From positions 478,307 through 526,964 of the forward strand of contig NW_003131859.1 in the NCBI RefSeq assembly GCF_000003605.2: a stretch of DNA of 48,658 nt, in the 5' to 3' direction. This stretch comes from Saccoglossus kowalevskii (lineage: Eukaryota > Hemichordata > Enteropneusta > Harrimaniidae). The translations under genes were made by a program, and so were the position numbers. Position 1 is the stretch's first letter. Each line of letters starts with the position of its first letter. This document shows positions 30,901-36,900 of this stretch, in pieces. Under the pieces are notes generated by a model. The model was not told the DNA's origin and made no database searches. It saw only the letters and a program-made list of their open reading frames with translations.

Positions 30901-33900
30901 GCTAAACACTCTTCCTAATGGGACAAGGCATTTTCTAATTTGACATTTTTATTACAACTTGATATATTAGACATCAATAAGTCACCGTTTTATTGCCTTC
31001 TATGTTCCTGTTAAGCAAACAAGATAAATAAACACAGTGTGTCCTATGGTAGACACATGTAATGATTCAACAGTTTCCAGTTGCACCCAATAAAGTCATT
31101 TCAAGTTTGAAGGAATTCCAACCACGCAAGATTTAAGGGATTGCTGGCAGTAGAGAAGGATTCAGACATTTTTTCGCTTTCTAGTCTCACTCATAAAGTA
31201 AGATTTTGATTTTCTGTCAGCTGTGAATTTGATTTGTTGTGCAATCGCGGAAAAATGTCCTAGTTTTTGAAAGGAAACTAACACAATGATCATTTTAACT
31301 TGTTTATTTCAAAAACACATGATTTAAGAAATAGAATACTAGACCCATCATTTCCCTTGTTTTTCTATAATTTCTTTATTAATTTTGGACCAATAGAACC
31401 TACAGGTTTTGATATTATGATACAATTTTAAAAAGACCCACTAAAAAATTTTATCAAGCAGAGACAGGAAGTAGTATGAAATAAAAAAAAATTGTTTTGT
31501 TGTGGAAATGGCAAAATCTAAATTATGAATATTTTGATTTCAATGTAAACAAATTAAACAGACTGTCATGATCCGATTTGTGCTTTTCTATCATATTTCC
31601 TCAAAAAATACATAACGTTTACTGATTATCATCATCAGTCTTTTTTTTCAGAAAATATTAATTTTTATTCCTGTTTGCTTTCCAACCAAAAAAAGTGACT
31701 TGCCAAATGAGTGCATCTTGAATTTTCATAGTGAATGTTCCGGCAAAGCACTCCACTAAGAATGTACGAACGTAACAACACCGTGCAGGCGGACGATGAA
31801 TGGGATTACGTTCATTGGGCATTATTTGTTTGTAGAGGTCTTGGAAAGCATATAAATCCAAGGCAATCACTACTAATAGAATCAATACAGAAGATAATCA
31901 AAAAAGAACAAGAGTATATGGTAATCTTTACCCTTGTTTGTTATCATTTTAGCAGATAACCCCCGTATTGACCTGGAATTTTATGATATAGTGAGCCGAG
32001 ATCACAGAAAATGTGTAATGTTAAAATGTTATCAGTTCGTCCTTCAAAATAGTTATCTAAATGGCTCCGATCAAATTCCTCCGATTTTGACATAGTGATG
32101 GAAAAAGCGAAAATATCAGAGTTGAGGCGAGTTCTTTGCATTTCTAATGACGGATTGTTGTGTATTTATAGCCTAGTGTGTTGTATCATGTCGTATCGTA
32201 AACCGACATGCAACAAACCAGTTTTGACAGACTCTTACACAGAAATTATTTTTCAATAATGAGGATTCAAATCTTATGTTAGCCTTACATTGAATTTCAT
32301 GTCAGATAATTTATTTTTTTTGAAAACTTTCTAAAAAAACATTTTTTTTTTAACTTCAAGGCTTTTATCAAACATCACCTATTTTAATAATAAACCTGAC
32401 CGTTTTATATTTTATTTACAAAGAAAAATTGAAATTTGATCATTGTTTTTAACTATTATTTAAGTTTTATATAATCATGTCTGGGTGAGATAAACTACCT
32501 TTTACTACAAACCATGTTGACCTTTGACCTTGGAATGCCAAAGTCAACTTTTGTCACAACAGAAACCTTCCTAACTTTTACTATACATAAAAAATGTGCC
32601 AAATGTTAATGTTCAAAAGAAGAAGCGGAAGCAGGAAAAGTGAAAGGATAAAGTTACTTTAGTGCATCGAGTATGTTTGCATTATCATTTGACAAGATAT
32701 TCTATATCGTAAATCATTTTACTTTATCTACTTTAGATAACACTTCGTCTCCTACTGTACTTCACAATGTCACATTTTCATATTTTATCGCAAATGTATC
32801 ATTTTATGATAATAAGTAATAAAATAACAAACTTGCCTAAGTGTGTTGATTTGTTAATATTATTTTTATAATGTGTCCTCAAATGTAAGACCGTCAAACT
32901 GTAAAGCGTTTTTATTTCGCAAAAGACCAATTTTCGCAAGTCAGTGATCGACTTTTGTCGTAGTTAAAAATTCTCTTGGGTGCTACAACATGGAGTGTCA
33001 GAGACTTTTACAAAATTTTATTTTTTAAGATGCCATAAAATCCTGAAATTACTTAAATTTATAGTAACAAATAGCCAGAAAATAAAATTTAAGAAACTTA
33101 TATACAATGAATCTTTCAGAATCTGAATTCTATACTTTTTTTATTTCACAAACTCCTTTCCCGTTTTTTACACATAGATTTTCCTGCCTAATAGTTAATG
33201 TAACATTTTGCACATTATTATATTTTTTCCCTATAATTTCTTCTTTTTTTTCACCAAATGGACTTAGTTTCCCCATTAGTTACAGGTCTTGATGACAATT
33301 TTTAAAAAAAAAAATATGGACAAATTTTCCATGAAAAGTCACAAAAATCCTGTGAAAGCATCATGCCTGTAATATGTTTGTCTAAAAGCTCCATGTTTTG
33401 TTGCCATGGGAGCAGAACAGCCCTGAATATTTGTGCTGCATTTGTTTTCCACTGAAATCTTAATGTGAATATTGCTCAACAAAGTTACATAAGAAGAGAG
33501 TGGGTCCCATGCAACCTAAAGAATGATGCTCATACGTCATTTGTTTACACAATGTTCAAATGTGCACCACACAATGATTGTGACATTTCAAGTTTTCAAC
33601 TGAAGGTGGTGATTATTTTATGAGTAAATTTTAATTATTTAGTTATTAATTACTGAAAATTTCCTGATTAATTTTCTCTATTAATGACATTGATATAGTA
33701 TGGTTTATGGATACATACTTTGTGCTGTTTGAAGTAAAGGCCGCAGGCATTACACACAGGTTCACCATCGTTATTCCTACGCCACAATGTAGTTACAGTA
33801 GTACCACAGTTGGAGCAAGATATACCCTCATGACGAGAGCCAGACTGGGCAAGAAGAAGAAAAACACATAAAAATATAAATAGCAAAGTTACGTACCGAG

Positions 33901-36900
33901 TGAAGCTTGAAATACAGTCCGCATGCATTGCACACTGGTTCACCTTCGTTATTTCGGCGCCATAGTGTTGTTTGTGTCGTATGACAGTTGGCGCACTGAA
34001 GACCTACCCGACGTGATGCAGACTGAAGAAACAACAAAAGAAATGTTGTCAATTTACTCGCCCATTGAAAAAAAAGGTAAAAAAGAAAAAAGAAAAACTT
34101 CCCTCGTATTTAATTCCTAAATCCGTAGATTTCAAGTAACATCAAGCCAAACAAGCAGAAGTTAGTAAAGCAATCCATCTGCACAAAAGCATGATTTAAG
34201 CATTTTTTTTACATCATTAGCATTGTTAAGTTTTTTGCTCAGCCTGCCCACGTCAGGAAGGACGTACGACATGAAAATGAAAAATATATGAACGCAGCAT
34301 AGCATAGCAAAGCAGTGAGTATGTTCTCATGCAGAACACCCGCAGCATGCAGTAGTAAAGTGCAGCAGTAACGAAATATGCAGCAGTAAGGAACAGCGGG
34401 CACTACAACATGCAGCAGTACCGAAAAATTCAGCAGTAGGGAACAGCTGGCACTGCAACATGCAGCAGTACCGAAAAATTCAGCAGTAGGGAACAGCGGG
34501 CACTACAACATGCAGCAGTACCGAAAAATCCAGCAGTAGGAAACAGCGGGCACTACAACATGCAGCAGTACCGAAAAATGCAGCAGTAGGGAACAGCGGG
34601 CACTACAACATGCAGCAGTTGGAAACAGCAGAACCACAACATGAAGCAGTAAAAAGCAGCAAAACTGCAACATGTACCATACAAATTAATAACAAAACAG
34701 TAATATTAAAGTAAGAGAGTCGTCACCTGAGCACGTGCGGGAATTGAGTCCCAAGCGACAATAACAACACACTCTAAAAACGCAAAGGCTCATGGGTAGA
34801 CGCTTGTTTGTAAACAATGACACGCTATGGCCATCGGACATATGTGCAGGTGACGACTCTCTCGCTTTAACAATCAAATGTCAAAGCTTAGTGTTTGAGA
34901 TTAAACTGAAGCACTTTGCATAGTCCATCCTGATTGGTCATACATTTACATAAATAAAGTAAAAGTGACCAATCAGTGATGAGGTTGCAATGTTGTTCAG
35001 CCAGAAAGAGAGTAACTAAAATGAAACCAAATGCTTCAGCTCTCTCCTGGGTCTAATATTGAATGAATGAACTTTATTTTTTCAGTGTAAAAAAATAGTA
35101 GGTTACATAGGGTGTTTGCAACAACAGGTGTTTATGCATGACCTCCAAAAGCCCACACATCCTGGTACTTTTTAGGGGAACAAGTTCACTGTTAATGAGA
35201 ATTTCTAAATTATTTTCCCCAATAATACAATCAATTGTTATTGAAGTTCCAATACTGTTAAACATTTTTAGGTAATATTGGTAACTAATACTGACATACA
35301 ATACCCCCAGAATGTACCAGGATGTCTGACCTATTGGGGTCATACAAAGAACCAGGATGTGTGACCTTTAGATCATGCAAAGTACCAGGATGTGTGACTT
35401 TTAGGGGACATGCATGAGGCCTATAAAACACAAGACCGAAGTGGTGAAAAAAAGAGACTGAATGGTAGGACAGTACATATCTATGGAAACAATATGACTG
35501 TTTGGACTAAATTACGACCTCAAGTCTTTGCGTTTCAGTGTATCCTGGCTCTTATGCTAAACAAAATTTTTTCAATAAAAAATGTGATTAATATGGTTTT
35601 AAATAAAGCTTAACCAAACATCAGCCAGACCGCATCTCACATTGCCATTAACTACATTATACATATAATGTGATTTTGATTGGTCCATGCAGAGTGAGGC
35701 TAAGTTGTAATTATTTTCACTGAGCTAGGGGGCCCAGTGAAAAAAGAATGTACTCTTAAGGTGTACTCTAGGAAACCAGCAGTTACAGGCATTGACAATG
35801 TGAGGGAGCAACGTCTGAAAGCTAGAAAACACTGAACCGAAAGTTTCACTGGTTTTGATTGGTTACCTGATGTTGTGTATAGGCACGTGGGTCTTTTTCG
35901 TCACTTACCAGTCTACGCTGTGGTTTGATCAGTGGACGATTCATACCATTCATCTTATGGTATAATCCACATGCATTACACAGGTAATGACCGGTGCCGT
36001 CACGTCGCCAAAGCGGGGTTGACATTGCACCGCAGTTGACACACTCTCTGCCCTCTGCAGGAAAAGATGAAAAATCTATATCACAATATAGAATAGTTCT
36101 TGTTGTAAAAAAACAAACTGTAAACAGAACTTCCCATCACTGGTTGCCATGGTGACCATGAAGATAAAAAGTGACAAAATACATTGGGGAAAACAAAAGC
36201 GTTTTCGAATTGTATTTTACACATATTGTAAACAACTTTAATTTTGTTAAAGACAATTTGTAGCAGTGACATTTTCTCTGCAGTCCCAGAGTGTTAATGA
36301 TCTTCACAAAGTTTTGTATTCACAGATGCAATAAAATAAAATTATGAAAATCAAGCAGCTAATATTAAAACGGTATACATTATATGTGTTGCTATGAACC
36401 ACAGCAAACTTGACACGACACAACAATCACCTTCCTGTAATAGATTTTCCTACTGTATACATATTCCAGAATTATGCAAAAAAGTTTGTCGTATCAAATG
36501 AACACATGTAATCCTAATCTATTTCTGAGAAAGTTTTAAAAAAATCACAAAAAATTAAGTGATAATTGTCCATAAAGCGTATATAAACAATATTTATATT
36601 GTGGCTGTTGTGTAATAATCTCATCTTCTCATATATGGTTTATAGGCTTAGAAATTGTACAACAAAACTGGCTCTCCTCAAATCTATTTTAAAATTCAAG
36701 TCCGCGGAAAACTGGGAATCTTTTTCTATCAATCAAAGGCGGAAGATGGTAAGAATATATTAAGACACTTCTATAGCCAGCAGAGATTATCTACTTAAGA
36801 GTGGTATACACATACAAATGCTTATCTCTGGTTAAACTAGCTGATGAAGAAATCACTTGCTTTTCTCTCACTCCTTTACAGCATAGTCGTATGGCAGGTG

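Follow-up and report, generated by a model that had tools for sequence, protein, structure and literature searches.

The locus described here raises the question of whether a single GATA4/5/6 gene can offer two versions of its C-terminal zinc finger and, if so, how the choice between them would be made. The gene lies on the minus strand of the window, that is the 48,658-nucleotide stretch of Saccoglossus kowalevskii DNA analysed here (G000:C2346:478307-526964, within a 572-Mb genome of 4830 contigs), and its modelled coding exons run from 45043 to 24745. Between the N-finger exon and the exon for the basic tail stand two C-finger exons, hereafter Ca and Cb. Our preferred reading, to which we assign a probability of roughly 0.7, is that the C-finger exon of this one gene was tandemly duplicated long ago and that the copies now form a mutually exclusive pair, isoform b having altered binding.

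Two C-finger exons under purifying selection

Ca and Cb are homologous neighbouring exons of equal length (126 nt) and phase (0/0), as in mutually exclusive pairs generally. Each is flanked by an acceptor AG and a donor GT, and each encodes a CX2C-X17-CX2C finger whose Pfam GATA score (62.1 bits for Ca, 60.3 for Cb) is well in excess of the 26.8-bit cut-off. They agree at 31 of 42 residues, with 14 of these 31 using a different codon; the coordinates, lengths, phases, finger pattern and similarity given in the original prediction were thus all reproduced. At the nucleotide level 38 of the 126 positions differ, distributed as 8, 8 and 22 over the three codon positions. Comparison of nonsynonymous (dN) and synonymous (dS) distances, which the original prediction had proposed, yields a dN of 0.18-0.19 and a dS of 2.1-2.7 (0.194 and 2.675 by NG86, 0.178 and 2.145 by maximum likelihood), a ratio of about 0.08 at saturated dS. 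Free drift of Ca was simulated for reference (n=20,000), a run passing if it retained an open frame, the four Cys residues and at least 31/42 identity to Ca. The passing fraction was 9.4% at 0.15 substitutions per site, 0.5% at 0.25 and 0.005% at 0.37, with no run passing at 0.5, 1 or 2. Since dN lies far below dS, and in the light of this simulation, both copies are under purifying selection on the protein. The saturated dS also indicates that the duplication is old, its age not being readable from that figure. Two trivial sources of a second exon were rejected: an assembly echo by the number of nucleotide differences, and a pseudo-exon or chance similarity by the drift simulation set against the synonymous distance.

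Cb appears to be the derived copy and Ca the canonical one. The comparison employed four other C-fingers, those of GATA4, GATA3 and GATA1 from PDB chains and that of the second GATA gene of this genome. Of the 11 sites at which the copies differ, Ca shows the commoner state of these fingers at eight and Cb at one, the remaining two being ties. Ca matches GATA4 at 36 of 41 residues, compared to 30 of 41 for Cb, and matches GATA3 at 31 of 42. Branch lengths are 0.36 for Cb and 0.08 for Ca in a 42-column finger tree which carries a long-row warning, leaves six of its seven inner branches open and does not resolve the C-fingers; given such a tree and the saturated dS, the duplication is not placed. 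Exon positions 6 and 14 of Cb are Glu and Gly, as in N-fingers and unlike the compared C-fingers, a likeness that may be due to chance, to convergence or to a short conversion tract.

Assignment to the GATA4/5/6 (GATA456) class, as originally predicted, is borne out by the presence of both CX2C-X17-CX2C fingers with a GATA-N domain upstream of them (PF05349; 67.4 bits against a cut-off of 20.3, E 2.4e-18). The GATA-N domain marks this class. It lies in the first coding exon, which was modelled from the ATG and comprises the coding part alone. As in the GATA456 genes of PMC2857956, internal introns divide the first finger, the second finger and the lysine-rich tail, one exon being extra here. 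Splice models with Ca only or Cb only each give 1470 nt and 489 amino acids with no internal stop. When both C-fingers and the N-finger were used as tblastn queries against the window, the three known exons (Table 1) were the only matches at E <= 1e-9, the next having E of at least 0.05. By the same search no second N-finger exon, which could replace the N-finger in the manner of Drosophila serpent, was found in the window, although an exon lacking finger similarity would escape it.

Table 1. Features of the GATA4/5/6 gene, in window coordinates
Feature	Positions	Strand	Basis or remark
First coding exon as modelled (ATG to donor), 805 nt	44239..45043	-	GATA-N domain PF05349; donor cag/GTAAAT
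N-finger exon, 146 nt	35909..36054	-	PF00320 57.5 bits; splice sites
50-bp tandem array, five copies, each with sense UGCAUG, in intron upstream of Ca	34361..34619	-	
C-finger exon a (Ca, apparently canonical), 126 nt, phase 0/0	33897..34022	-	PF00320 62.1 bits
Intron separating Ca and Cb, 52 nt	33845..33896	-	Sequence reading
C-finger exon b (Cb, apparently derived), 126 nt, phase 0/0	33719..33844	-	PF00320 60.3 bits
Basic-tail exon common to both isoforms, 165 nt, phase 0/0	25538..25702	-	Splice sites, open frame
Last coding exon, 228 nt including stop codon	24745..24972	-	Open-frame transcript model

Alternative exons in the finger region are not in themselves new to this class. The amphioxus gene BfloGATA456 has them, but there an alternative second exon drops the first finger, and a single C-finger exon is described in the part of the paper available (PMC2857956), whereas here the C-finger is doubled. 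In Drosophila serpent, according to PMC8844375 (in part; citing Yue et al. 2016), exons 4A and 4B are thought to derive from exon duplication and are spliced in a mutually exclusive manner, in likeness to the pair described here. There, however, the N-finger exon is swapped for one without a known motif, while in the present gene it is the C-finger that has been duplicated, each copy remaining an intact finger, in line with the original view of serpent as a different arrangement. No description of two C-finger exons in one GATA gene was recognised among the papers listed by searches of an open-licence library, outside which most subscription papers lie; the novelty originally suggested for this layout agrees with that, within the limit that absence is not provable.

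A second GATA gene, on contig C1729 and taken as GATA123, has one N-finger and one C-finger, the C-finger exon also being of 126 nt. No second C-finger of this gene was found among the nine GATA-profile matches listed, of which the best candidates were scored. A further GATA-type finger, CASCSTRSTPLWRDAEDGTPLCNACGIR, is present in an unassigned gene at L006 (G000:C770:91052-91135).

Residue changes at the DNA interface

Animal GATA factors bind DNA chiefly through the C-finger, whose Leu at position 347 presumably touches DNA in the GATA1 complex. Numbers here are those of the GATA3 crystal structure, obtained by adding 307 to the exon position, with Cys317 and Asn319 as anchors. Arg312 (exon position 5) and Leu347 (exon position 40) are Arg and Leu in all four other C-fingers; in Cb they are replaced by His and Gln, respectively. 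At position 349, GATA3 has Asn, Ca has Ser and Cb has Lys. The contact list employed comes from a single source, excerpts of PMC8611019, and is partly computational: Arg312 of GATA3 is computed to make hydrogen bonds and a salt bridge with DNA, and Leu347 is among the residues interacting with DNA or with a second GATA3 molecule. Isoform a would be a standard factor. Isoform b would retain the zinc ligands and most contacts and, through the changes at 312 and 347, should still bind GATA-like sites, though with a changed affinity, a different flank preference or other partners; some alteration of its DNA behaviour, of unspecified size and direction, is plausible.

It might instead be that either-or use is real but that the two proteins are equivalent, the pair being of use for dosage or timing, or as a link to different transcript ends. 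Ca and Cb do indeed share six of the residues listed for the interface (Arg329, Arg330, Asn339, Leu343, Lys346 and His348), all of them within the exon. Furthermore, the substitution Leu348Arg of GATA3 (347 in crystal numbering), found in hypoparathyroidism, deafness and renal dysplasia (HDR) syndrome, is reported to leave DNA affinity unaltered, probably acting through a conformational change in the major groove (PMC8611019, seen as excerpts). We nevertheless consider equivalence unlikely, given that Cb departs from residues invariant in all the other C-fingers compared and has much the longer branch.

The short intron and the proposed choice of exon

In the intron between Ca and Cb, adenines occur at +3, 7, 8, 16, 20, 22 and 28 and in the terminal AG, which is the only AG present. 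Leaving aside the acceptor AG, the adenine furthest downstream is at +28, and a branch point of Cb, if an adenine, would be at most 28 nt away from the Ca donor. This candidate position falls inside the limit of around 50 nt proposed for OGDH, where branch points lying 25-41 nt beyond the donor impose mutually exclusive splicing (PMC7969005, in part). Exons 4a and 4b of OGDH resemble Ca and Cb in being separated by a short intron, but OGDH is a metabolic enzyme with experimentally mapped branch points, whereas those considered here are predicted. A human survey, as excerpted, applies the same limit and finds that it fits 57 clusters, or 9% (PMC5740500); with so small a share, steric spacing is to be seen as one mechanism among several. 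Applied to the present gene, the 52-nt intron would be too short for splicing, since U1 bound at donor a would leave no room for U2 at the b branch point, and vice versa, and a transcript would contain Ca or Cb followed by the basic tail. Read-through of the intron shifts the frame and meets a stop within Cb (open reading frame 33828-34109).

For comparison, introns elsewhere in the genome, as estimated from adjacent profile hits (21 in myosin, 31 in kinesin after removal of one 530-kb row spanning two genes, and 3 in chaperonin), are all longer than 100 nt, and two of the shortest, read exactly, measure 111 and 115 nt. The donors of Ca and Cb each match the U1 consensus at six of nine positions, compared to eight of nine for the two upstream donors and five of nine for that of the tail exon. 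With two interface-listed residues changed in Cb, and a spacing expected to bar the joining of Ca to Cb, the two C-finger isoforms of distinct DNA or partner choice put forward in the original prediction are plausible.

Inclusion of both exons would give a factor with three fingers (N, Ca, Cb, then tail), and such a transcript is in frame (1596 nt, no internal stop), as is one with neither exon (1344 nt, open). Against a three-finger product stand the short distance from donor to any adenine branch point in an intron of 52 nt, compared with 55 introns exceeding 100 nt elsewhere, and the fact that Ca would be deprived of its basic tail; we regard it as improbable. Lastly, that Cb is a non-functional relic, or never spliced in, is very unlikely indeed: the evidence on its use is here genomic, yet its splice sites are intact, all four zinc ligands are present, and the low dN/dS (at saturated dS) and the drift simulation both speak for its maintenance.

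Several considerations weigh against a mutually exclusive pair of functionally distinct exons. Use of Cb is predicted from the DNA sequence. Both exons are multiples of three, and either double inclusion or double skipping would keep the frame. The steric limit derives from vertebrate measurements, and some invertebrates splice introns of around 50 nt. The intron sample is small, has approximate ends, includes two short myosin pairs marked as sharing one open frame, and is drawn from three non-random families. The affinity result for Leu348Arg suggests that the change from Leu to Gln in Cb may matter less than supposed. Finally, Gillis et al. 2009 (PMC2857956), in the part available, report that Saccoglossus and Branchiostoma have one GATA456 gene apiece, in which the first finger, the second finger and the tail each occupy a single exon. 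Their SkowGATA456 is of the same class and has first-finger, second-finger and lysine-rich tail exons in the same order as here, but with one second-finger exon rather than two; it was derived from trace reads, and a second may be absent or may have been overlooked.

Surrounding features and implications

RBFOX proteins read UGCAUG, a motif present 26 times on the transcribed strand of the window, with 13 of these occurrences between 33000 and 36054. Two of the 13 are in the N-finger and Ca exons, five in the 50-bp array and six elsewhere in the flanking intron. The latter six, in 2268 nt of flanking intron outside the array, compare with 0.92 expected; none of 1000 shuffles reaches six and the other strand has two. 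As the motif was picked after being noticed in the array, this enrichment is a lead only, and the array may be conjectured to be a candidate regulatory element.

The neighbouring gene, on the plus strand at 13509-14749, encodes a RIO kinase domain (PF01163, with scores of 46.3 and 77.8 bits). Human GATA6 and RIOK3 lie near each other, and the neighbourhood may represent an old linkage. Positions 1-1943 of the window are occupied by a tandem array of around 32 copies of a 64-bp unit.

Contig C4830 (L010, L011) of the same assembly, of 17,037 bp, is mitochondrial. COX1 lies on the opposite strand to most other protein genes, the sense strand is G-rich, and the gene order, based on genes identified visually from their open frames, resembles that of deuterostomes with an inverted COX1. 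Alignment of ND5 and ND1 with mammalian chains (the first four of six ND5 blocks and three of four ND1 blocks) places ATA at Ile in 13 of 30 cases and at Met in 5 of 30, AAA at Lys in 11 of 15 and TGA at Trp in 7 of 10. ATA for Ile together with AAA for Lys is the hemichordate mitochondrial combination, and these codon meanings and the gene order point to Hemichordata as the probable source phylum.

As far as found, described splice variation of GATA genes affects the N-finger. A preserved second C-finger would show that the DNA recognition of an endomesoderm regulator is divisible by splicing instead of gene duplication. Ca and Cb would also provide a natural pair for the study of residues 312 and 347, the latter being mutated in human HDR syndrome (PMC8611019, in part). 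More tentatively, and with the odds against it, the hemichordate GATA4/5/6 gene might swap its DNA-recognition finger by a splicing switch, possibly of RBFOX type acting through the UGCAUG motifs clustered near Ca and Cb, and so address two target sets from one locus. If true, exon duplication would do for one endomesoderm regulator what gene duplication did in vertebrates.
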